A DNA stretch of 11,408 bases. Origin: an uncultured Dehalococcoidia bacterium. Its GTDB lineage: Bacteria; Chloroflexota; Dehalococcoidia; Tepidiformales; Tepidiformaceae. This document shows, piece by piece, positions 1 to 10,941 of this stretch. Each line of letters opens with the position of its first letter. Within the stretch, counting starts at the first letter, position 1. The notes under the pieces were generated by a model. The model did no database searches. It was not told the origin of the DNA and saw only the letters and a program-made list of their open reading frames with translations. The stretch spans positions 1-11,408 of the forward strand of contig CALFYR010000662.1 in the NCBI GenBank assembly GCA_937954195.1, in the 5' to 3' direction. Both the position numbers and the translations under genes were made by a program.

Positions 1-153
1 TACCTGCAGGCGGGCGGCGGGATTGTCTATGATTCGGTGCCCGATACCGAGTACACCGAAACGATGAACAAGATGCGCGCGCTGATGCGGGCCATCGACC
101 AGGCCGAGATTGCCGCTGCCGAGATGAAGACCGGCAGCATTGGATACGGGTAG
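1..153 (+). CDS. trpE: Anthranilate synthase component I, C-terminal end (partial)
   Basis: This is the last 50 codons of a gene that begins outside the window. TrpE converts chorismate plus ammonia, supplied by TrpG, to anthranilate, the first committed step of tryptophan synthesis. The segment [18 protein letters not shown] matches the conserved C-terminal chorismate-binding region of TrpE/PabB enzymes (usual form QAGAGIVADS..PE.EY.ET.NK), followed by [10 protein letters not shown], the typical last helix. It stops at TAG 151-153, 4 bases before the next start. Chorismate-binding relatives (PabB, isochorismate synthase) share this region, but the downstream trpGDCFBA genes make TrpE much the best reading. 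The promoter and any feedback-binding N-terminus are not visible. Confidence 0.9.
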
Positions 154-157
154 GGCC

Positions 158-550
158 ATGACCGACCGCCGTCCCGACTGCGTTTACGGCATCCTCATCC
201 GCGAGGGGCGTGTGTTCCTGCGCGAGATGGACGGGGGCCTCGGACTGCCGGGGGGCGTGTTCCGGCCGCTTGCCGAGGACCGGAAGGTTGAGCTGCGGGC
301 GCACATCTGGGACCAGCTGGAGGTCGAGGCGCGGGCGGTGTGGGCCCAGGGCGCGTTCGACTACCGAAACCCGGACGAGGAGACCGATCGGTTCAGCGGG
401 TTCTACACCGTTTGGGAGTGGGAGCCAGACCCGGCGCAGGGCCTCGGCCGGTGGCTGAACACCGACCAGGTGGCCGCGAGTGGGCTGGTGCCTTCGCTGA
501 AGATCTTGCTGCAGAGCGTGATTGCCACCCAGGCGGTGAAAACGACATGA
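158..550 (+). CDS. Degenerate Nudix-fold protein
   Basis: A 130-residue protein resembling the Nudix (MutT) fold. It has an N-terminal strand pair (GILIREGRVFL, residues 11-21), then LPGG (30-33) where the Nudix box begins, and a GRWL segment (97-100) at the place of the usual substrate-side loop. The catalytic box is not intact: aligning DQLEVEA (52-58) with the usual EELGVEA tail puts AH and DQ where the metal-binding RE and EE should be. It is therefore probably not a classical Nudix hydrolase and may bind a nucleotide-like ligand or act structurally. ATG 158 is chosen because it lies 4 bases after trpE and follows a GGGTAGGG purine run; a TTG at 140 is the in-frame alternative. It overlaps the next gene by ATGA. 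Family is moderately sure, function unknown. Confidence 0.7.
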   Translation: MTDRRPDCVYGILIREGRVFLREMDGGLGLPGGVFRPLAEDRKVELRAHIWDQLEVEARAVWAQGAFDYRNPDEETDRFSGFYTVWEWEPDPAQGLGRWLNTDQVAASGLVPSLKILLQSVIATQAVKTT

Positions 551-1425
551 AGCAGCACATCTACATGGCGGCGATCCTCGAACGCGAAGGGCGATTGTTC
601 CTGGTGCGGCCACGGCCGGACGCGCCGTGGGAGCTGCCGGGCGGTCCGTTGCCACCGCACATTGATGACGTCGACGAAGAGATGGATGCGATCCTCGGGC
701 GAATGGGCGTCCAGGCCCCGGCCATCGAAGAGGACTTCCTGCAGACGCACTACTTCCCGGTCCCGGATGGGCAGTTCGTGTTCAACCTGTATGCCGCGAC
801 CGAGTGGTCGGGCGAGCCGGCGGTGCCGCCGGGTCATGGGAGCGGGTGGTTCGAGCCGGGCGAGTTGGAATCGATCCATATGGATGAGGGCACGCGGAAC
901 GCCGTGTTGGAGGCGTTCGGGCTGAAGGAGCCCAAGGACATCACGGCCGACATCTTGCGGGCGATGGCCGGGCGAGACGACGAGGTAGACGCCGCTCCCC
1001 AAGCGCCACCGGCGGTGAAGCCTTCCAGCACCGAAGCCGCACGGGCCGCGGGGTTGGACGTGCTCGGGACGCTTTCGGGGCAGGACCCCGCGAAGGCAGC
1101 AGCGGCCATGGCGCAGCGCGAACCCGAGCTCGCGGACGACATCATCGATTTCGCGCTGGGGCAGGTATGGAGTTCGAAGGCGCTGGACCGGAAGACGCGG
1201 AGCCTGCAGGTGGTGGCCATGCTCGCCGCCCAGGGGCGTATCGGTCAGCCGCTACGGTCGCACATCAACGGCGCACTCAACCATGGCGCCACGCCGGATC
1301 AGATCGTCGAGACGCTGCGGATGGTTGCGGTCTACGCGGGGTTCCCGGCGGCGCTTGAGGCGTGGCCCGCGATGGAGGCGGTCTTCGAGCAGCGTGGCAT
1401 ACCGAGGCCGGGGAGCCCCCAATGA
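547..1425 (+). CDS. Degenerate Nudix domain fused to carboxymuconolactone decarboxylase-like domain
   Basis: A 292-residue two-domain protein. Residues 1-125 are Nudix-like (AAILEREGRLFLV at 8-20, ELPGG at 29-33, GWFEPGEL at 100-107), but the box is again broken: DAILGRMGV (47-55) stands where REUxEExGU is expected. An acidic, Ala/Pro-rich linker covers about 140-165. Residues about 193-285 match the carboxymuconolactone decarboxylase (CMD/PcaC) family: FALGQVWSS, LDRKTRSL, HINGALNHGAT, AVYAGFPAA. There is no Cys in that domain, so an AhpD-like CxxC peroxidase role is excluded; PcaC-type chemistry or a non-catalytic role remains possible. The start overlaps the previous stop (ATGA), and the N-terminal half looks paralogous to the preceding protein. 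I know of no assigned function for this fusion; aromatic ring-cleavage chemistry would be odd here. Confidence 0.75.
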   Translation: MKQHIYMAAILEREGRLFLVRPRPDAPWELPGGPLPPHIDDVDEEMDAILGRMGVQAPAIEEDFLQTHYFPVPDGQFVFNLYAATEWSGEPAVPPGHGSGWFEPGELESIHMDEGTRNAVLEAFGLKEPKDITADILRAMAGRDDEVDAAPQAPPAVKPSSTEAARAAGLDVLGTLSGQDPAKAAAAMAQREPELADDIIDFALGQVWSSKALDRKTRSLQVVAMLAAQGRIGQPLRSHINGALNHGATPDQIVETLRMVAVYAGFPAALEAWPAMEAVFEQRGIPRPGSPQ

Positions 1426-2072
1426 ACGCGATCCTCTGGGACATGGACGACACACTGCTGGACACCATCCAGGGCCGCATGATCGCGCTTGCGCACGCGC
1501 ACGAAACCATGCTCGGCACCAAGGTGGACCCCCGGGAGCTGTGGCGGTCGCACAAGGGTGGTTCGCTTGAGGCGATGGGGCAGCGGCTCGTGGGCGATGA
1601 CTGGGCGACGTTCGCGCGGATTTACCGCGAGCGATACTACAGCCTGGTGCGGGAGATCCGGCCGTATGAAGGCATCGAAGCGGTCCTCCGGTACTTTCAC
1701 GGGGCGGATGTCCCGATGGGCGTGGTGACCTCGAAGGTGTCGTACGGCGCAATCGAGGAGTTGACGACAGCGGGGCTGCTGGGATTCTTCCACTCGGTCG
1801 TTGGGGCTGACGACACGGACCGGCACAAGCCCGATCCCGAGCCCGTGTACGCGGCGCTCGACCGGATGATGGTCGACCACTTCGATAGCGTGCTGTTCGT
1901 TGGGGATAGCCCGGCGGACATCTGGGCAGCGCGAAACGCCGGCGTGAAGTCGGTGGCGGCACTGTGGGGGACGGTGGATTCGGAACTGCTGCTCGAGGCG
2001 CTGCCGGACTACACGGCGAAGACGCCCGGAGAGGTGCTGAGCATCGCCGCGGAACTCGGAGGTGCGGCGTGA
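1422..2072 (+). CDS. HAD-superfamily phosphatase (phosphoglycolate phosphatase-like)
   Basis: A 216-residue HAD hydrolase of the cap-bearing Gph/phosphatase type. All four HAD motifs are present: DMDDT (nucleophile D7, acid/base D9), motif II threonine T103 in VVTSK, the lysine K136 in HKPDPEP, and motif IV GDSPAD (D162, D166) followed by WAARNAG. A helical cap lies between residues about 15 and 80. It should remove phosphate from a small metabolite in the cytoplasm, but the substrate cannot be read from sequence; phosphoglycolate or a phosphosugar are ordinary guesses. The tryptophan in LWDMDD replaces the more usual Phe. ATG 1422 overlaps the preceding stop by ATGA and has GGGGAG (1410-1415) six bases upstream. 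It sits inside the block between trpE and trpG, so co-expression with the trp enzymes is likely. Confidence 0.85.
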
Positions 2073-2398
2073 ACGTCACCTTCGAAAAGCACGTCGCGCA
2101 CCTTGGCGTGCGGTTCTACCGGTATGGCGGCATCGAACTGGTGCTGGTCCCGCTGATGGACGAATCCGCATCGATGACGCGTTCGGCGGGGGACGGGTAC
2201 TTCCTTGTGGCGCTCATGGGCGAACCGGGTTCGTCGTACCCGCTGGACCTTCGGGCACCGGGTTCGTTCAACCCGAAGTACCTGGAAGAGAAATTCAAGC
2301 TCGACCGGCGAGGGTATGGGTACACGCCCGAAGAGCTGGCGGCGACGCTTCAACGCATCGCCGAAGACCTGGGCAACGAGGAGGGCATGGACCGGTGA
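2069..2398 (+). CDS. Hypothetical protein, 109 residues
   Basis: I do not recognise this family. The GTG start at 2069 overlaps the HAD stop (GTGA) and has a strong GGAGG (2058-2062) six bases upstream; its stop overlaps the trpG GTG in the same way, so it is tightly packed in the operon and almost certainly translated. The N-terminal half is beta-rich ([17 protein letters not shown], residues 13-29; GYFLVALMG, 43-51). The C-terminal part is charged and helical ([15 protein letters not shown], 87-101). There is no signal peptide, membrane segment or Cys. Translational coupling to trpG may make it a partner or modulator of anthranilate synthase, but that is inference from position only. Confidence 0.7.
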
Positions 2399-2976
2399 CA
2401 ACCGTACTCATCGATAACTACGACAGCTTCACGTACAACCTCTACCAGTACCTGGCGGAAATGGGCGCGGACGTGAAGGTCTTCCGGAACGACCAGGTGA
2501 CGATCGGCGAACTGAAGGCGCTGAACCCGGACCACGTGGTGATTTCGCCGGGTCCGGGGACGCCGGACGACGCGGGCATTTCGCGCGATGTGATCCGCGA
2601 GTTCGCAGGGAAGGTGCCGGTCCTGGGGGTCTGCCTCGGACACCAGTGCATTTATGACGTGTACGGCGGGACGGTGGCCGGCGCCGGCGAGATCAAGCAC
2701 GGGAAGACGTCGACGATTTCGCACGACGGCCGGGGCGTGTTCAAGGACATCCCGAACGACTTGAAGGCGGTCCGCTACCACTCGCTCGCCGGGACGCCGG
2801 ACACGCAGCCCGGCGACCTGGAAGTGACGGCGAAATCGGAGAGCGGCGTCATCATGGGCGTCCGGCACAAGACGTTGAAGGTCGAAGGCGTCCAGTTCCA
2901 CCCGGAGTCGATCGCGACAGAGCACGGGAAGGAGTTGTTGCGGAACTTCCTCGCGATGGAGGGAGGAACTTGGTGA
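2395..2976 (+). CDS. trpG: Anthranilate synthase component II (glutamine amidotransferase)
   Basis: A 193-residue class I glutamine amidotransferase that hydrolyses glutamine and passes ammonia to TrpE. Visible landmarks are NYDSF (8-12), [11 protein letters not shown] (51-61), the nucleophile elbow GVCLGHQ with catalytic Cys80, and VQFHPES with His169 and Glu171 completing the triad. Length is normal for stand-alone TrpG. GTG 2395 is chosen because it gives the standard N-terminus, overlaps the upstream stop (GTGA), and has GAGGAGGG (2378-2385) nine bases before it. PabA is nearly identical in sequence, so the protein may also serve folate synthesis if no separate pabA exists; trpD directly downstream supports TrpG. 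The stop codon lies at the start of an AT-rich heptad repeat. Confidence 0.95.
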
Positions 2977-4063: not shown

Positions 4064-4953
4064 GCGAGCCCACGATCCTCGACACCATCGTCGCACGGCG
4101 GCGGCAGGACGTGGCGGAGGCGAAGGCCGCGGTTTCGCAGGCTGAGCTTGGCGCGCGGCTGGCCGGCGCCCCGGAGCCGATCGACTTCGCCGAACGGCTG
4201 CGGCGGGATGCCCCGATGGCGGTGATCGCGGAGGTGAAGCGCGCCTCTCCGAGCAAGGGCGACATTGCGCCGGGGCTCGACGCAGTGGCCCAGGCGCTGA
4301 AGTACGCCCGCGGCGGTGCGGCCGGTATCTCGGTGCTGACCGAGCCGACGTGGTTCAAGGGGTCGCTGGCCGACATGGCGGGCGTGCGGGACGCAATCGG
4401 ACCGATGGGCGAGGCCCGCCCGGCGGTGCTTCGCAAGGACTTCATCATCGATGAGTACCAGGTCATCGAGGGGCGCGTGAACGGCGCCGACTCGGTGCTG
4501 CTCATCGTGGCGTCGCTGAGCGACGAACGGCTGGCGGCGCTGATGGATTGTTCGCGCGACCTTGGGATGGAGCCGCTGGTGGAAGTGAACAACAGCGACG
4601 AGATGGAGCGCGCGCTGGCGAGCGGGGCGAGCGTCATCGGCATTAACAACCGGGACCTGCGGACGTTCAACGTTGACCTGGGGACGACCGACCGGCTGGC
4701 TGGGATGGTCGGGAGCAGCGCGCTATTAGCGGCCCTGAGCGGCATCAGCACACGAGAGGACGTCGAGCGGTTCCAGGCGGCGGGCGCCGGTGCGGTGCTG
4801 GTGGGGGAAGCGTTGATGGTGGCGGGAGACCCGGGCGCGAAGATTGGGGAACTGCGGGCCCTCACCCCTAACCCCTCTCCCGACGCTGCGGGAGAGGGGA
4901 GCCGGGCGGATTCACGATTCACGATTCACGATTCGAAGGCGGCGACGCGATGA
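4060..4953 (+). CDS. trpC: Indole-3-glycerol phosphate synthase with repeat-encoded C-terminal tail
   Basis: A 297-residue protein. Residues 1-265 are a complete TIM-barrel TrpC, which closes the ring of CdRP to indole-3-glycerol phosphate. Landmarks: AEVKRASPSKGDI with catalytic Lys60, LRKDF with Lys126, LVEVNN with Glu175, GINNRDL (194-200), and the C-terminal phosphate site LSGIST...AGAVLVGEALM (226-253). The usual length is about 255-270; here about 31 residues follow, encoded by an inverted repeat and a heptad array (ALTPNPSPDAAGEG, then SRFTIHDS). The tail should be disordered and dispensable. ATG 4060 overlaps the trpD stop (ATGA), with GGGAG at 4047-4051. Despite the extra DNA, the stop still overlaps the trpF ATG. 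Confidence 0.95.
   Translation: MSEPTILDTIVARRRQDVAEAKAAVSQAELGARLAGAPEPIDFAERLRRDAPMAVIAEVKRASPSKGDIAPGLDAVAQALKYARGGAAGISVLTEPTWFKGSLADMAGVRDAIGPMGEARPAVLRKDFIIDEYQVIEGRVNGADSVLLIVASLSDERLAALMDCSRDLGMEPLVEVNNSDEMERALASGASVIGINNRDLRTFNVDLGTTDRLAGMVGSSALLAALSGISTREDVERFQAAGAGAVLVGEALMVAGDPGAKIGELRALTPNPSPDAAGEGSRADSRFTIHDSKAATR
4859..4935 (+). repeat. Inverted repeat plus (GATTCAC)n heptads inside the 3' end of trpC
   Basis: A composite repeat translated as the end of TrpC. CCCTCACCCC-type sequence leads into an 11-bp perfect stem (4872-4882 paired with 4889-4899; CCCCTCTCCC against GGGAGAGGGG) with a six-base loop. It is followed by three exact copies of GATTCAC at 4909-4929 and a partial GATTC. 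The translated string LTPNPSP is familiar from many unrelated bacterial proteins as readthrough of this kind of dispersed palindromic repeat. There is no T-run after the stem, so a terminator is unlikely. The reading frame remains open throughout. Confidence 0.85.
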
Positions 4954-6873: not shown

Positions 6874-7703
6874 CGGAGGCCACGCAGGAGCCATCCCGAC
6901 GATATCCGTGGGGGCCGCGCGAGGTGCTGATCGCGGCCGGCGCGTACCTTGGGGTGCTCATCGCGACGAACGTGCTGGTGATCCTCTGGATTGTCGCGAC
7001 CGGGAACGACTTCGAGCCGAGAGACGTAGGAGACGCGTTCGAGAAGGCAAACGTGCTGGTGCAGTACGCCGATGAGCGGTTGGCGGCGGCGGCAAGCGAC
7101 CGCGCATTCCCGGGGTTGCCCCAGCTCCTGGCCGACCAGGAGAGCCTGCGGATCGGCCTGCTGGTGACGATGCTCTCGCAGGTTGGCGCGTTCACGATCG
7201 TGGGCATCATGAGCAAGCAGACGTTCAGCGAGCTGTGGACGACGCTCGGGCTGAACCGGTTCAGCTGGCGCGGTTTGTGGGTGCCAGTGGCCGCCGTCGT
7301 GGGCGCGTACATCGCGACCATCGCGTACATCGTTGCGATGCAAGCGACGGGGATCGACCTGCTGACGCCAGAAAGCACCGTACCGGTGGAGATAACGCGG
7401 GACGACCTGACACTGAGCGTGGCCGCGGCGGCGACCGTGGTGGGGGCGCCGCTGAGCGAGGAGCTGTTTTTCCGGGGCTTCGTCTTCGCGGGCTTGTTGC
7501 GGTGGGGATTCTGGCCGGCGCTGGGGGTCTCGTCGCTCGCGTTTTCGATCATCCATCTCGATCCCGGGAGCGTGATCCTGTTCTTCGGCATCGGGGCGAC
7601 GATGGCGTGGCTGTTCTACCGCCGCGGGTCGCTGTGGGACGCCATCGTGTTCCACTTCCTGTTCAATTTCACCAGTTTCGCGCTGCTGGCGGCCGGGCGG
7701 TGA
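6870..7703 (+). CDS. CPBP-family intramembrane metalloprotease, first of tandem pair
   Basis: A multi-pass membrane protein of the CPBP (CAAX-protease/bacteriocin-processing, formerly Abi) family. The three motifs are intact: EELFFR (Glu197, Glu198, Arg202), FSIIH with His229, and FHFLFN with His262 and Asn266. Hydrophobic segments appear at about 20-43, 95-113, 135-157 and through 185-275. The ATG/GTG-only start would be GTG 6924 (259 residues), but the open frame continues upstream to CTG 6870, which overlaps the trpB stop as CTGA, has GGGAG (6858-6862) seven bases upstream, and restores a PWG motif shared with the next protein. With CTG both paralogues are exactly 277 residues. Substrate unknown; such proteins process peptides or prenylated proteins, or act in peptide immunity. 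Confidence 0.85.
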
Positions 7704-8533
7704 GCACGATGCACATCCGGAGCTGGCCGTGGGGGGAGCTGAATGTGGTGGCCGGCATCTGGCTCGGCGCGTTCGCGTATATCGTGCCGCTGCTGCTGAT
7801 TGGGCCGACGGCGCGGGCGCTTGGCGCCGAACCCGACTTTAGCGATATCGGGGATGCGTTCGAGAAGGCCGCTTCTGTTGCCCGATATGGCGATGATGTC
7901 CTGGCGGCCGCGGCCGCGAACGCGCCGCGACCCGAGCCGCCGCGCCTGCTCGGAGACCCGGTCGCCGCGCGGGTGGCGTGGGTGTACGGCATGGCCTCGG
8001 CCGCGTTGTTCGCGACGATTGCCGTGGTCGCCACGCGGCAGCGGTTCGGCGCGTTCGTCGCGCGGACGGGCCTCAGCCGCGACCGGCTCGACTTTGATCG
8101 CCTTTGGTTGCCGGCGGGGGCAGTCGCGGTGATGTATTTGCTGGTCGGCGGGTACACGCAGCTGGTGGACGCTCTCGGCTGGGAGACGCTGGTACCGGCC
8201 GGGAGCAGCCTGGACACGACGCTCCGGGACCCGCTCGCGCTCGCGCTCTATGGGGTAACGACGGTGGTGTTCGCGCCGGTGGGGGAGGAGTTTTTCTACC
8301 GGGGGCTCACGTTCTCGGGGCTTGCCCGCTGGGGCTTCGTCCCGGCGGCCTTCGTTTCGAGCGCGATTTTCGCGATTTCGCACTTCGATGCTGGGTCGCT
8401 TATCCCATTCACGGCGCTGGGGATGGTGATGGCGTGGCTGTACTGGCGCACCGGATCGTTGTGGGATTCGATCGTGTTCCACTGCCTGTTCAACTCACTC
8501 ACGTTCATACTGCTGGTGGCGAGGATTAGCTGA
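7700..8533 (+). CDS. CPBP-family intramembrane metalloprotease, second of tandem pair
   Basis: A 277-residue paralogue of the preceding protein. It keeps the catalytic motifs: GEEFFYR (Glu196, Glu197, Arg201), FAISH with His228, and FHCLFN with His261 and Asn265. Both proteins share a distinctive segment between the first and second membrane helices (DIGDAFEKA here, DVGDAFEKA in the first, followed by Y.D..LAAAA), so this is a tandem duplication with substantial divergence rather than two unrelated acquisitions. GTG 7700 overlaps the previous stop (GTGA); ATG 7709 is an alternative three codons later. The stop immediately abuts the trpA ATG. Its place inside the trp operon implies shared transcription, not a shared reaction. 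Confidence 0.86.
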   Translation: MSTMHIRSWPWGELNVVAGIWLGAFAYIVPLLLIGPTARALGAEPDFSDIGDAFEKAASVARYGDDVLAAAAANAPRPEPPRLLGDPVAARVAWVYGMASAALFATIAVVATRQRFGAFVARTGLSRDRLDFDRLWLPAGAVAVMYLLVGGYTQLVDALGWETLVPAGSSLDTTLRDPLALALYGVTTVVFAPVGEEFFYRGLTFSGLARWGFVPAAFVSSAIFAISHFDAGSLIPFTALGMVMAWLYWRTGSLWDSIVFHCLFNSLTFILLVARIS

Positions 8534-9325
8534 ATGTCGAAACGACTACGAGACCTGTTCGCAAGCGCACACGCCGAAGGGCGCAAGCTGTTCGTCCCGT
8601 ATGTGACGGCGGGGTATCCGCGGCCCGAGGACACGGTGCCGATCCTGCTGGCGATGGAGGAGGGTGGCGCCGACGCGATCGAGATTGGGGTGCCGTTCAC
8701 CGACCCGCTGGCCGATGGCGCGACGATCCAGCACGCGAACCAGGTGGCGCTCGAACAGGGGGTGACGCTGGGCAAGTGCTTTGACTACGTCCGTGAGGCG
8801 CGGGCGCAAGGGCTGAAGGCGCCGGTTCTGTTCATGGGGTACTACAACCCGATCCTCGCCCGGGGGGAAGCGCGCGCGTGCGCGGAAGCCGCCGCCGCCG
8901 GCGCCGATGGGTGGATCGTGGTGGATCTGCCGCCAGAGGAAGCCGGTTCGTTCCTGGCGGAGTGCAAGAAGGCGGACATGAGCTTTGTGCCACTCATTGC
9001 TCCGACGACGCGTGATGAGCGCATCGGGACCATCGCGAGGGTAGCGGATGCCTTCATCTATTGCGTGAGCATGACGGGAACGACCGGCGGGGCCCAGGTA
9101 AACCAGGACGACCTGCCGGTGTTCATCGAGCGCATCCGGGCGCATACGGATACGCCGCTCGGTGTGGGGTTCGGGATCAACACGCGGGCGCAGGCGGATG
9201 CGGTCCGGAAGGTGGCCGATGCGGCTATCGTTGGCAGTGCTATAATCGCCACCATTGACGCCGCGGAGGAGAACCACCGCGCGCAGAGCGTCAGGGAGTA
9301 CGTGGAGAATGTCTCCGGCCGGTAG
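8534..9325 (+). CDS. trpA: Tryptophan synthase alpha chain
   Basis: A 263-residue TIM-barrel subunit that cleaves indole-3-glycerol phosphate and passes indole to TrpB. The catalytic acids are Glu50 in EIGVPF and Asp61 in DPLADG, matching Glu49 and Asp60 of the enteric enzyme. Other landmarks are GYYNPIL, the DLPPEE loop, CVSMTGTTGG (loop 6 region), LGVGFGI and AIVGSAII. Length is normal. ATG 8534 directly follows the protease stop and has GAGGA (8521-8525) eight bases upstream. Its last 90 bases contain a consensus-like extended -10 promoter and probably the start of a leader peptide. Separation from trpB by 1.66 kb is unusual because the two subunits form a complex. Confidence 0.95.
   Translation: MSKRLRDLFASAHAEGRKLFVPYVTAGYPRPEDTVPILLAMEEGGADAIEIGVPFTDPLADGATIQHANQVALEQGVTLGKCFDYVREARAQGLKAPVLFMGYYNPILARGEARACAEAAAAGADGWIVVDLPPEEAGSFLAECKKADMSFVPLIAPTTRDERIGTIARVADAFIYCVSMTGTTGGAQVNQDDLPVFIERIRAHTDTPLGVGFGINTRAQADAVRKVADAAIVGSAIIATIDAAEENHRAQSVREYVENVSGR
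9238..9246 (+). promoter_or_regulatory. Extended -10 promoter inside trpA, probably for the aroH-aroF unit
   Basis: TGCTATAAT is a perfect extended -10 element (TGnTATAAT) in otherwise GC-rich coding sequence. It encodes part of AIVGSAII using a rare ATA codon, which suggests the bases are constrained by more than the protein. No good -35 hexamer is seen at 16-18 bases, which extended -10 promoters can lack. Transcription would begin near 9253, about 56 bases before the candidate leader ORF and 245 before aroH. Direct sequence observation; promoter activity is inferred. Confidence 0.55.
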
Positions 9326-9446
9326 TGGACAGGTGAATGCGGCCCACACGTGGGAAAACGAGCGCCGATGGGCGTGGCGTTGGCCCCTCGTGGGCCGCGC
9401 TTATGGGTGTCCACCGGCCGGGACCTTTGGGCTCCCGGTTCGCTAA
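9309..9446 (+). CDS. Candidate Trp-rich leader peptide upstream of aroH
   Basis: A 45-codon ORF (37 codons from the alternative GTG 9333) ending at TAA 9444-9446, 51 bases before aroH. It contains four TGG codons at 9351, 9369, 9375 and 9381, the last three in alternate codons (RRWAWRWP), plus one Tyr and one Phe codon downstream. ATG 9309 has AGGGAG (9293-9298) ten bases upstream and overlaps the trpA end by 17 bases. Leader peptides of this kind let ribosome stalling at Trp codons control biosynthetic genes. TGG is not rare in GC-rich DNA, so enrichment alone is not proof. The promoter upstream, RNA stems around it, and a DAHP synthase operon downstream make regulation plausible. Confidence 0.5.
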   Translation: MSPAGSGQVNAAHTWENERRWAWRWPLVGRAYGCPPAGTFGLPVR

Positions 9447-9473
9447 GGGCACAACACCAAACCCTAACGAACC
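9339..9473 (+). promoter_or_regulatory. Putative attenuator-like leader RNA structure before aroH
   Basis: Three stems can be drawn. GCGGCCCAC (9339-9347) pairs perfectly with GTGGGCCGC (9390-9398), enclosing all four Trp codons; a local GGCCC/GGGCC hairpin (9382-9396) competes with its 3' arm. CCGGGA (9418-9423) pairs with TCCCGG (9433-9438). GGTTCG plus a TA and a GGG (9437-9449) pair with CCC, TA and CGAACC (9462-9473), sharing two bases with the previous stem and including the leader stop codon. No T-run follows any stem, so an intrinsic terminator is not evident; control could be translational or Rho-dependent. The aroH Shine-Dalgarno (GGAGGAGG, 9480-9487) is not obviously sequestered. 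Confidence 0.4.
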
Positions 9474-9497
9474 CCCGCTGGAGGAGGACCTGCGCGT

Positions 9498-9881
9498 ATG
9501 CCGGTTCGCGGCGTCCGTGGTGCTACAACTGTCACCCGGAACCAGAAGGAAGAGATCCTCGAAGTCACGAAGGAACTTTTGAGCACGATGCTCGAAGTGA
9601 ACGGGATAGACACCGAGGACATCGCTTCCGCCTGGCTGACCACAACGCCCGACCTGTACGCGGAGTTCCCGGCAGTTGCCGCCCGCCACATTGGCTGGAC
9701 GCAGGTGCCACTCATGCAAAGCCACGAGATGTCGGTACCCGGCATGCTCCCGCTGTGCATCCGAGTCCTTCTCCACTGGAATACGGAGAAGACCCAGAGT
9801 GAAATCCGCCATGTGTACCTGCGAGAGGCAGCCCGCCTCCGCCCCGACCTCAGTACGAGTACACACTCGACAGCGCGCTAG
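9498..9881 (+). CDS. aroH: Chorismate mutase, AroH class
   Basis: A 127-residue monofunctional chorismate mutase of the Bacillus AroH fold, converting chorismate to prephenate for Phe and Tyr synthesis. It has the same length as the Bacillus subtilis enzyme and the same signatures: [10 protein letters not shown] at the start with Arg7, HEM with Glu77, CIRV with Arg89, and IRHVYL with Tyr107, matching Arg7, Glu78, Arg90 and Tyr108 there. ARLRPDLS closes the conserved part. ATG 9498 follows a near-perfect GGAGGAGG (9480-9487) ten bases upstream. It is the first gene after the leader region, followed after 16 bases by DAHP synthase, so a small aromatic entry/branch unit is formed. Confidence 0.95.
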
Positions 9882-9897
9882 TGGAGATTCAGAACCT

Positions 9898-10941
9898 GTG
9901 ATCATTGTAGTTTCGCCGGAGGCCACTCCGGATGACATTGACGTTATCGTCGCCCGAGTCGAAGAGACCGGGCGGCAGGCCCACCTTTCCGTCGGCACCG
10001 AACGCGCCATCATCGGCGTGATTGGGCCGGACGACCCGGCGCTGCAGGACGCGTTCGAAAGCCTGCCGCACGTCGAATCCGTCCATCGCGTTACCAAGCC
10101 GTACAAGCTGGTGAGCCGCGAGTTCCATCCCAGCAACACCGTCGTGGACGTCGGACGCGGGGTGACCGTTGGGGGAACGGAGCTGGCGGTAATGGCCGGC
10201 CCGTGTTCGATCGAAAACGAAGAGCACATCTTCGAATCGGCGAGGGCCGTGAAGGCTGCCGGCGCGAACATGCTGCGGGGCGGGGCGTACAAGCCGCGAA
10301 GTTCGCCCTACGCGTTCCGCGGGCTCGGCGAAGTGGGACTTGAGTACCTTGCGGCGGCCGGCCGCGAGATGAACCTGCCGGTCATCACGGAACTGATGAC
10401 CGTGCGAGACATCGACTCGGTTGCCCGCTACGCCGACGTCATCCAGATTGGCGCGCGAAACATGCAGAACTTCATCCTGCTGGATGAGGTTGGGAAGACG
10501 AAGAAGCCGGTGATGCTGAAGCGCGCGCTGAGCGGGACCATTGAGGAGTGGCTGCTGGCAGCCGAGTACATCATGGCGCAGGGCAATCCGCACGTGATCC
10601 TCTGCGAGCGCGGCATCCGGACGTTCGAGACGGCATACCGCAACACGTTCGATGTGAACGCCATCCCGCTCGTAAAGGAGCTGAGCCACCTGCCGATCAT
10701 CGCCGACCCGAGCCATGGGACCGGGAAGCTCAACCTGGTGACGCCGGTGGCGATGGCGGGTATCGCCGCGGGGGCCGATGGGCTGATGATCGAGGTTCAT
10801 AACAATCCGGAGCACGCGCTCTCCGATGGAGCTCAGTCGTTGACATATGAACGCTTCACTTCGATGATGCGGTCAGTCGCCGGTATCGCTTCCGCGGTCG
10901 AGCGGACGCTCCCAGGGGTCTGGGCGTCTGCAGCGGTCTGA
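9898..10941 (+). CDS. aroF: 3-deoxy-7-phosphoheptulonate (DAHP) synthase, type I-beta with regulatory N-domain
   Basis: A 347-residue DAHP synthase that condenses PEP and erythrose 4-phosphate, the entry step of the shikimate pathway. Residues 1-66 form a ferredoxin-like (ACT-like) domain as in the Thermotoga enzyme, where it mediates Tyr/Phe inhibition. The barrel follows KPYKLVSREFHP (67-78). Metal ligands are Cys103 (GPCS), His273 (DPSHG), Glu299 (IEVH) and Asp310 (LSDG), each one residue later than in Thermotoga. RGGAYKPRSSPY, QIGARNMQNF and CERGIRTFE are the substrate-site signatures. GTG 9898 gives the standard N-terminus; GGAG (9883-9886) lies 11 bases upstream. It is probably co-transcribed with aroH. 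The symbol aroF is used loosely for the family. Confidence 0.93.
   Translation: MIIVVSPEATPDDIDVIVARVEETGRQAHLSVGTERAIIGVIGPDDPALQDAFESLPHVESVHRVTKPYKLVSREFHPSNTVVDVGRGVTVGGTELAVMAGPCSIENEEHIFESARAVKAAGANMLRGGAYKPRSSPYAFRGLGEVGLEYLAAAGREMNLPVITELMTVRDIDSVARYADVIQIGARNMQNFILLDEVGKTKKPVMLKRALSGTIEEWLLAAEYIMAQGNPHVILCERGIRTFETAYRNTFDVNAIPLVKELSHLPIIADPSHGTGKLNLVTPVAMAGIAAGADGLMIEVHNNPEHALSDGAQSLTYERFTSMMRSVAGIASAVERTLPGVWASAAV
10840..10868 (+). promoter_or_regulatory. Possible sigma70-type promoter for scpA inside the DAHP synthase gene
   Basis: TTGACA (10840-10845), a perfect -35 hexamer, is followed after exactly 17 bases by GATGAT (10863-10868), which matches four of six -10 positions. The start would be near 10875, about 130 bases before the scpA ATG. 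The local codons (TTG ACA TAT) are less GC-rich than the neighbourhood. This would let scpA, a chromosome-maintenance gene, be expressed apart from the aromatic genes. Inference from matches only. Confidence 0.3.

Follow-up and report, generated by a model that had tools for sequence, protein, structure and literature searches.

A conserved leader ORF with Phe and Tyr codons and a long hairpin ahead of aroH and DAHP synthase genes in Dehalococcoidia

Does a short Trp-rich ORF, placed where trp genes give way to genes of chorismate mutase and DAHP synthase, sense Trp, or does its conserved signal lie elsewhere? We addressed this question for a stretch of 11,408 nucleotides (the window; contig CALFYR010000662.1) from an uncultured member of the Dehalococcoidia (Chloroflexota; order Tepidiformales). 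According to Pfam, trpG, trpD, trpC, trpF, trpB, two Rce1-like genes and trpA are followed in this order by aroH (CM_1), DAHP synthase and scpA (Table 1). The two Rce1-like genes (CAAX protease family; 6924-7703 and 7700-8533) adjoin each other between trpB and trpA. Of the proteins scanned ahead of trpG (window 1-2400), none was recognised as a trpE product; they include a carboxymuconolactone decarboxylase-like protein and an HAD hydrolase. The first-pass annotation, made from the window alone, had proposed a Trp-sensing leader peptide of 45 codons on the forward strand. The ORF runs from ATG to TAA as it described, ends 51 bases before the aroH ATG, and has TGG codons at 9351, 9369, 9375 and 9381, the last three in alternate positions (RRWAWRWP). 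Its placement in the trpA-aroH gap holds for the end of the ORF; the start lies inside trpA, with a 17-base overlap in the +1 frame. The annotation itself cautioned that TGG is moderately common in GC-rich DNA. Of all 45-codon stretches in the six frames of the window, 3.1% hold at least four TGG codons and 0.36% hold W.W.W, and the Trp count is only mildly unusual for the composition. The number of Trp codons alone is weak evidence, and it is conservation among related sequences that shows the importance of the ORF.

Table 1. Features of the trpA-aroH region of the window
Feature	Position	Strand	Remarks
trpA (Trp_syntA)	8534..9325	+	Pfam; its end provides the P1 5' arm; stop 9323-9325
Leader ORF, 45 codons, ATG...TAA	9309..9446	+	overlaps the end of trpA by 17 nt, +1 frame
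Helix P1, 5' arm	9315..9321	+	pairs with 9415-9421; 5 of 7 pairs invariant
Helix P1b, 5' arm	9325..9330	+	pairs with 9409-9414; changes on both sides in 5 of 6 pairs
Helix P2, 5' arm	9339..9347	+	pairs with 9390-9398
Apical hairpin P3	9362..9375	+	9362-9366 with 9371-9375; spans Trp codon 9369-9371 and reaches the first base of 9375-9377
Trp codon block	9369..9383	+	codons 9369, 9375, 9381 (fourth at 9351); confined to part of the close clade
Helix P2, 3' arm	9390..9398	+	
Tyr codon UAU	9402..9404	+	3 nt behind P2 3' arm; UAU in 39/41 loci, UAC in 2/41
Helices P1b and P1, 3' arms	9409..9421	+	
Phe codon UUU	9426..9428	+	4 nt behind P1 3' arm; UUU in 41/41 loci; UUC in L044 and L195
Shine-Dalgarno-like GGAGGAGG of aroH	9480..9487	+	
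aroH, chorismate mutase type I (CM_1)	9498..9881	+	Pfam; ATG at 9498
DAHP synthase (DAHP_synth_1) with N-terminal ferredoxin-like domain (DAHP_snth_FXD)	9898..10941	+	Pfam; co-occurs with the leader

Relatives were collected with an AroH profile (24 proteins), of which the best 80 of 393 genome loci were used. Within the order, 32 of the 38 genomes searched had an aroH match, and the trpA-aroH gap could be aligned in 21 sequences, including the window. The AroH homologues bear names of Tepidiformaceae or near kin within Chloroflexota, and one 98% match is labelled Phycisphaerae. A covariance model of the leader RNA (R1) gave one match per genome in 22 of the 38 genomes of the order, and matches in 41 of 393 genomes of the class sample, two of which were judged to be chance. 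The R1 matches L038 and L040 (the latter inside aroH) look like chance, and L150, L151 and L196 were judged to be chance. Across the phylum, one search gave matches in 11 of 400 genomes, comprising five leaders also seen in the other searches and six weak matches (L157-L162), and another gave matches in four of 400, among them the chance match L199. No second leader copy was seen in any genome, each genome with an R1 match having one. Two profile matches in genome G261 (L192 and L193) were read as one locus divided over contigs, because one ends its contig after trpA and the leader, and the other starts in the leader before aroH and DAHP synthase.

We picked 41 core loci by a peptide pattern that required an open frame with a Tyr and residues resembling AGxF, and a stop at most 14 codons away. 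That these loci have a Tyr, a Phe and an early stop, and no stop inside the frame, is therefore partly a selection effect; codon choice, start codons and RNA-model matches are independent of the pattern. Seven loci missed by the pattern (L019, L026, L031, L044, L046, L062 and L195) were read by eye. The stop of L046 lies about 16 codons past the Phe, and its leader call is less clear than that of L044. The leader of L074 is cut by a contig end. In L132 (genome G027), the element is out of frame at 132 nt, and aroH and DAHP synthase are broken as well; frame breaks in all three are as expected in an error-rich assembly or a decayed region. Annotation mostly misses the leader: a profile of 36 leaders retrieved 10 predicted proteins, none with a domain, a lower bound since the search requires common 5-residue words and more may exist.

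The earlier claim that a leader ORF of coding character precedes chorismate mutase and DAHP synthase stood up well among the relatives. From codon 1 to the Phe codon, none of the 39 distinct sequences from the 41 pattern-chosen loci has a stop in the ORF frame; the same stretch contains stops in 18/39 and 36/39 sequences in the other forward frames and in 19-27/39 in the reverse frames. The lengths of the R1 matches are 2 mod 3 in 40 of 41 cases class-wide (two of the 40 being chance), with real matches spanning 89 to 125 nt and L132 as the exception. All 11 full-length gap matches have lengths of 2 mod 3 as well (62 to 104 nt). We examined synonymous changes past the trpA stop in six frames for three ungapped groups (13, 7 and 6 sequences), and the synonymous/non-synonymous ratio was highest in the ORF frame in each group: 2.57 (next 1.65), 1.88 (1.38) and 3.22 (1.59), where the two distant groups represent one clade and L083 of the close group still overlaps trpA beyond the assumed stop. 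In the 3' half of the leader of the close group, the synonymous ratio reached 4.32 versus 0.77 and 0.80. Start and stop are conserved in their own ways. An ATG or GTG stands at codon 0 in 20/41 loci, an ATG at codon -3 in 22/41, and at least one of them in 39/41; the leader stop follows 1-10 codons past the Phe, compared with 6 to 44 codons, up to the sequence end, in the other two forward frames. Where trpA is visible (38 loci), the ORF is always in the +1 frame relative to it, and overlaps it in 37 of them. In L067, the trpA tail recurs 157 nt past the trpA stop, together with the ATG and the P1 arm, and carries the leader, which indicates that the start and the P1 arm are kept apart from TrpA coding. 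The trpA tail of L067 is doubled at 4620-4930 (trpA end and leader start), as after a local duplication, and L191 and L192 have a trpA-to-leader distance as in L067. Judged by this conservation, the leader ORF is real and conserved in part of the Dehalococcoidia, and mostly unannotated.

The same stretch is also constrained as RNA. Positions 9310-9500 fold into a long hairpin (-95.3 kcal/mol, z -2.93) with the exact arms 9315-9323/9413-9421 and 9339-9347/9390-9398. In the close-clade alignment (20 distinct rows), 91.0% of the pair cells are standard pairs and 31 cells are changed on both sides. Such changes occur in 10 of 22 pairs (6 of the 22 never vary and are hence uninformative), and none of 500 shuffles reached the covariation score. 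The distant clade (14 sequences) gave a similar picture for the whole structure, with 93.8% paired and 33 cells changed on both sides; 0/500 shuffles reached its covariation score, and 6/500 had at least as many pairs with changes in both partners. Its apical helix is written in other letters and covaries, and P3 is kept, by eye, in Tepidiforma with a different sequence. An Rfam search covering riboswitches, T-box and Trp leader found no match in 9200-9600 at E up to 10, and none in the whole window at the gathering score; the T-box, riboswitch and Trp leader families were ruled out by this absence. By the sequence comparison, the stretch is under both a coding constraint and a hairpin constraint with compensatory changes.

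Which codons, then, are kept within the conserved frame? As far as the alignments go, the lasting feature of the leader is one Phe codon and usually one Tyr codon, rather than Trp codons. The near-exclusive use of UUU and UAU at these positions (Table 1) can be compared with trpA, trpB, aroH and the DAHP synthase gene of the same loci, in which TTT and TTC occur 97 and 870 times (10%) and TAT and TAC 99 and 574 times (15%), a comparison to which no simple probability applies because the loci are related. In L019 a Tyr replaces the Phe, and the upstream Tyr is absent at its place in L026, L031, L044, L046, L062 and L195, which are short or divergent members.

The distribution of the leader among operons points to DAHP synthase as its partner. 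Among 68 trpA-adjacent loci with aroH or DAHP synthase, 41 have both leader and DAHP synthase, 18 neither, 7 DAHP synthase only and 2 the leader only, counts for which shared ancestry accounts in part and in which L114, L130, L062, L031, L026, L019 and L074 were labelled as leaders by hand. Two of the seven DAHP synthase-only loci (L044 and L046) were read as having a leader, and the other five have a trpA-aroH gap of at most 36 nt. As for the two leader-only loci, the sequence of L139 ends 6 nt past aroH, and L062 is a weak member. The informative cases are L114 and L130, both from genomes within the order, in which aroH is lost between trpA and DAHP synthase (no match elsewhere in the whole draft genomes) and leader and DAHP synthase are kept, and the reverse case L013, which has aroH without DAHP synthase and shows no leader match. 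Because of these cases, DAHP synthase would be the partner of the leader.

Trp sensing, in which a shortage of Trp would make ribosomes stall on the TGG codons, was the reading that the locus first invited. It is suggested by the four TGG codons, by the rarity of W.W.W by chance and by the adjoining trp genes, and WxW past codon 0 does recur in 11 of 20 close loci as well as in P0122, P0123, P0125 and P0126. As a general function, however, it is not supported by the wider comparison: counting only past codon 0, since trpA is also coded at codon 0 and earlier (L021 has W.W there), WxW is found in 0/21 distant loci and any Trp in 3/21. TGG at codon 0 in 16/21 distant loci might be taken as support, but this position overlaps trpA, and the other five have TGC. 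Even among the close loci, nine lack WxW (L003, L004, L008, L011, L012, L016, L086, L087 and L095), and the Tepidiforma leaders (L003, L004, L086 and L087) have one Trp left. The outcome that the first-pass annotation named as refuting is half borne out: there are relatives that share the gene order and lack the Trp codons, but their frame is kept. A tree of 38 loci (FastTree, midpoint root; L005, L006, L066, L139 and L148 dropped for want of trpA or DAHP synthase, L114 and L130 added) suggests, by eye, an origin of the WxW block inside the close clade, followed by several losses. The block also coincides with P3, which by eye persists in Tepidiforma with a different sequence. We consider Trp sensing improbable as the role of the leader; the Trp codons are an addition of one subclade, with a possible Trp input there.

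Other accounts were weighed as well. TnaC and SecM are arrest peptides that stall the ribosome, and the conserved C-terminal GRxYG...AGxF could likewise be a nascent-chain arrest peptide responding to a small molecule; the conserved Ala-Gly before the Phe would also fit such a motif, and in the close group it is the 3' half of the leader, ending 1-10 codons before the stop, that shows the strongest synonymous bias. Such a peptide alone needs no UUU or UAU codons, yet UUC and UAC are rare, and we regard it as unlikely. If the ORF were incidental to a structured RNA, a riboswitch or an intra-operon processing hairpin splitting the trp from the aro mRNA, the strong compensatory pairing and the nucleotide-level constraint on UAU and UUU would be accounted for, but not the lengths in threes, the frame-specific synonymous bias and the kept start and stop, and Rfam offered no match up to E=10. 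This explanation is rather unlikely, and a pure RNA element as the complete account was rejected because of the frame results. The ORF might instead encode a functional protein of some 40 residues, such as a DAHP synthase partner. This would agree with the conserved C-terminal residues and with the co-occurrence with DAHP synthase even without aroH; it is quite unlikely given a middle part variable in length and sequence, constraints on codons and hairpin across the ORF, and the lack of any domain in the 10 predicted proteins. A +1 ribosomal frameshift at the trpA end, appending the ORF to TrpA, would be consistent with the invariable +1 frame in 38/38 loci and with a frame that is open through most of the 60 nt upstream in many loci. 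Nevertheless, L021, L030, L037, L049, L066, L139 and L142-L145 have an in-frame stop 6 codons before codon 0, just ahead of the -3 ATG, and the start codon is preserved by alternation. A TrpA extension is very improbable, and we rejected it on these upstream stops and on L067, whose leader lies well past the trpA stop.

The reading we tentatively favour is an attenuator-type control: the hairpin would be held open by a ribosome that waits at UAU or UUU, and this would set aroH-DAHP synthase expression. The position of these codons just behind the 3' arms of P2 and P1, together with the overlap of the leader with trpA, suggests a control by ribosome position according to Tyr and Phe supply. We infer that the leader is translated in the cell, probably coupled to trpA translation, and that its coding region would fold as one long hairpin, P1-P1b-P2-P3. 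A ribosome short of charged tRNA-Tyr or tRNA-Phe would wait at UAU or UUU, covering the 3' arm of P2 or P1 and keeping the hairpin open, and expression would run on into aroH and DAHP synthase. With plentiful amino acids, the ribosome would depart, the hairpin would re-form and the downstream part would be reduced. Rho-dependent termination or mRNA cleavage may bring about this reduction rather than an intrinsic terminator. In the sequence of this window, no intrinsic terminator or U-run was found (0 terminator-like sites in 8500-10000).

The access of the aroH Shine-Dalgarno sequence showed no consistent change with ribosome position over the 41 loci (mean access 0.42 free, 0.42 at UUU, 0.42 at UAU and 0.48 at the stop), and Shine-Dalgarno switching, modelled with a ribosome footprint on UAU, on UUU, on the stop of the leader or on that of trpA, was rejected accordingly. 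By eye, L066 seemed to have competing helices, but the access test supported them neither there nor at other loci. The alternative hairpin around UUU versus P1 is weak (mean z -0.91; its mean stem length is reached in 13/200 shuffles). Apart from the Trp cluster in 11 of the 20 close loci, the leader lacks a group of neighbouring codons for an amino acid that would regulate it, and one Phe and one Tyr are a thin signal for a classical attenuator. We also count against the attenuator reading the UUC in L044 and L195, the missing Tyr in six loci, the out-of-frame element of L132 and the reported lack of any effect of Tyr supply in Corynebacterium glutamicum. A broader proposal is doubtful: that the Dehalococcoidia have a new family of sensors for aromatic amino acids, each an overlapping gene whose leader peptide, codons and single hairpin are selected together, with single pauses at UAU and UUU controlling entry into the shikimate pathway without a terminator or a Shine-Dalgarno switch, and Trp as a third input in one clade.

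Leaders of a comparable kind are known from other bacteria. In Streptomyces, a Trp leader may stand ahead of an aroH-type DAHP synthase gene, for which a literature search gave no confirmation. The pheL/pheA leader has many Phe codons and a terminator, unlike the Dehalococcoidia leader with its one Phe codon and no terminator found in the window. The two are alike as Phe-codon leaders ahead of chorismate mutase, to judge from the excerpts of PMC11802643 on pheL/pheA of Escherichia coli, where the leader precedes the chorismate mutase activity. The closest known system, by analogy, is the aroR-aroF leader of Corynebacterium glutamicum, in which a leader with Phe-Tyr-Phe precedes aroF (DAHP synthase); stalling under Phe limitation is reported, and Tyr supply is said to have no effect, in excerpts of PMC11802643 (section 7, citing Neshat 2014), and the leader is also covered in PMC4046766. 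By this description, the two systems share a small ORF that carries Phe and Tyr codons and precedes DAHP synthase. Unlike aroR, the Dehalococcoidia leader sits within a trp-aro run and overlaps trpA, its coding region is a conserved hairpin, its Tyr and Phe stand apart ahead of aroH-DAHP synthase, and the window is without an intrinsic terminator. The trp leaders of Corynebacterium and Streptomyces, as outlined in excerpts of PMC1262725, share a UGG-bearing leader ORF in an aromatic pathway operon, and have double or triple UGG, an antiterminator and a terminator with poly-U; in the Dehalococcoidia, by contrast, the Trp block is specific to one lineage, and a search of the window gave no terminator. 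The same excerpts describe the LEU element upstream of leuA in Actinobacteria, where a pseudoknot forms and Leu codons pair with the Shine-Dalgarno box (PMC1262725). It resembles our element in combining a candidate leader peptide with a conserved RNA structure, but the Dehalococcoidia leader is a single long hairpin without a consistent Shine-Dalgarno effect. Among open-licence papers, searches on leader peptides in Chloroflexi or Dehalococcoidia and on tryptophan in Tepidiforma gave nothing recognisable as this element from titles and abstracts, and no open-licence paper turned up that links DAHP synthase to a leader peptide bearing tryptophan codons.

The analysis brings to light a conserved leader gene, unannotated in most genomes, in which constraints on coding and on RNA overlap; for Chloroflexota, the searched open-licence literature gave no description of such a control of aromatic synthesis. 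It also illustrates that a Trp-rich look can mislead, the lasting signal being the Phe and Tyr codons. With it, cultured Tepidiforma species gain a directly testable candidate regulator of DAHP synthase.
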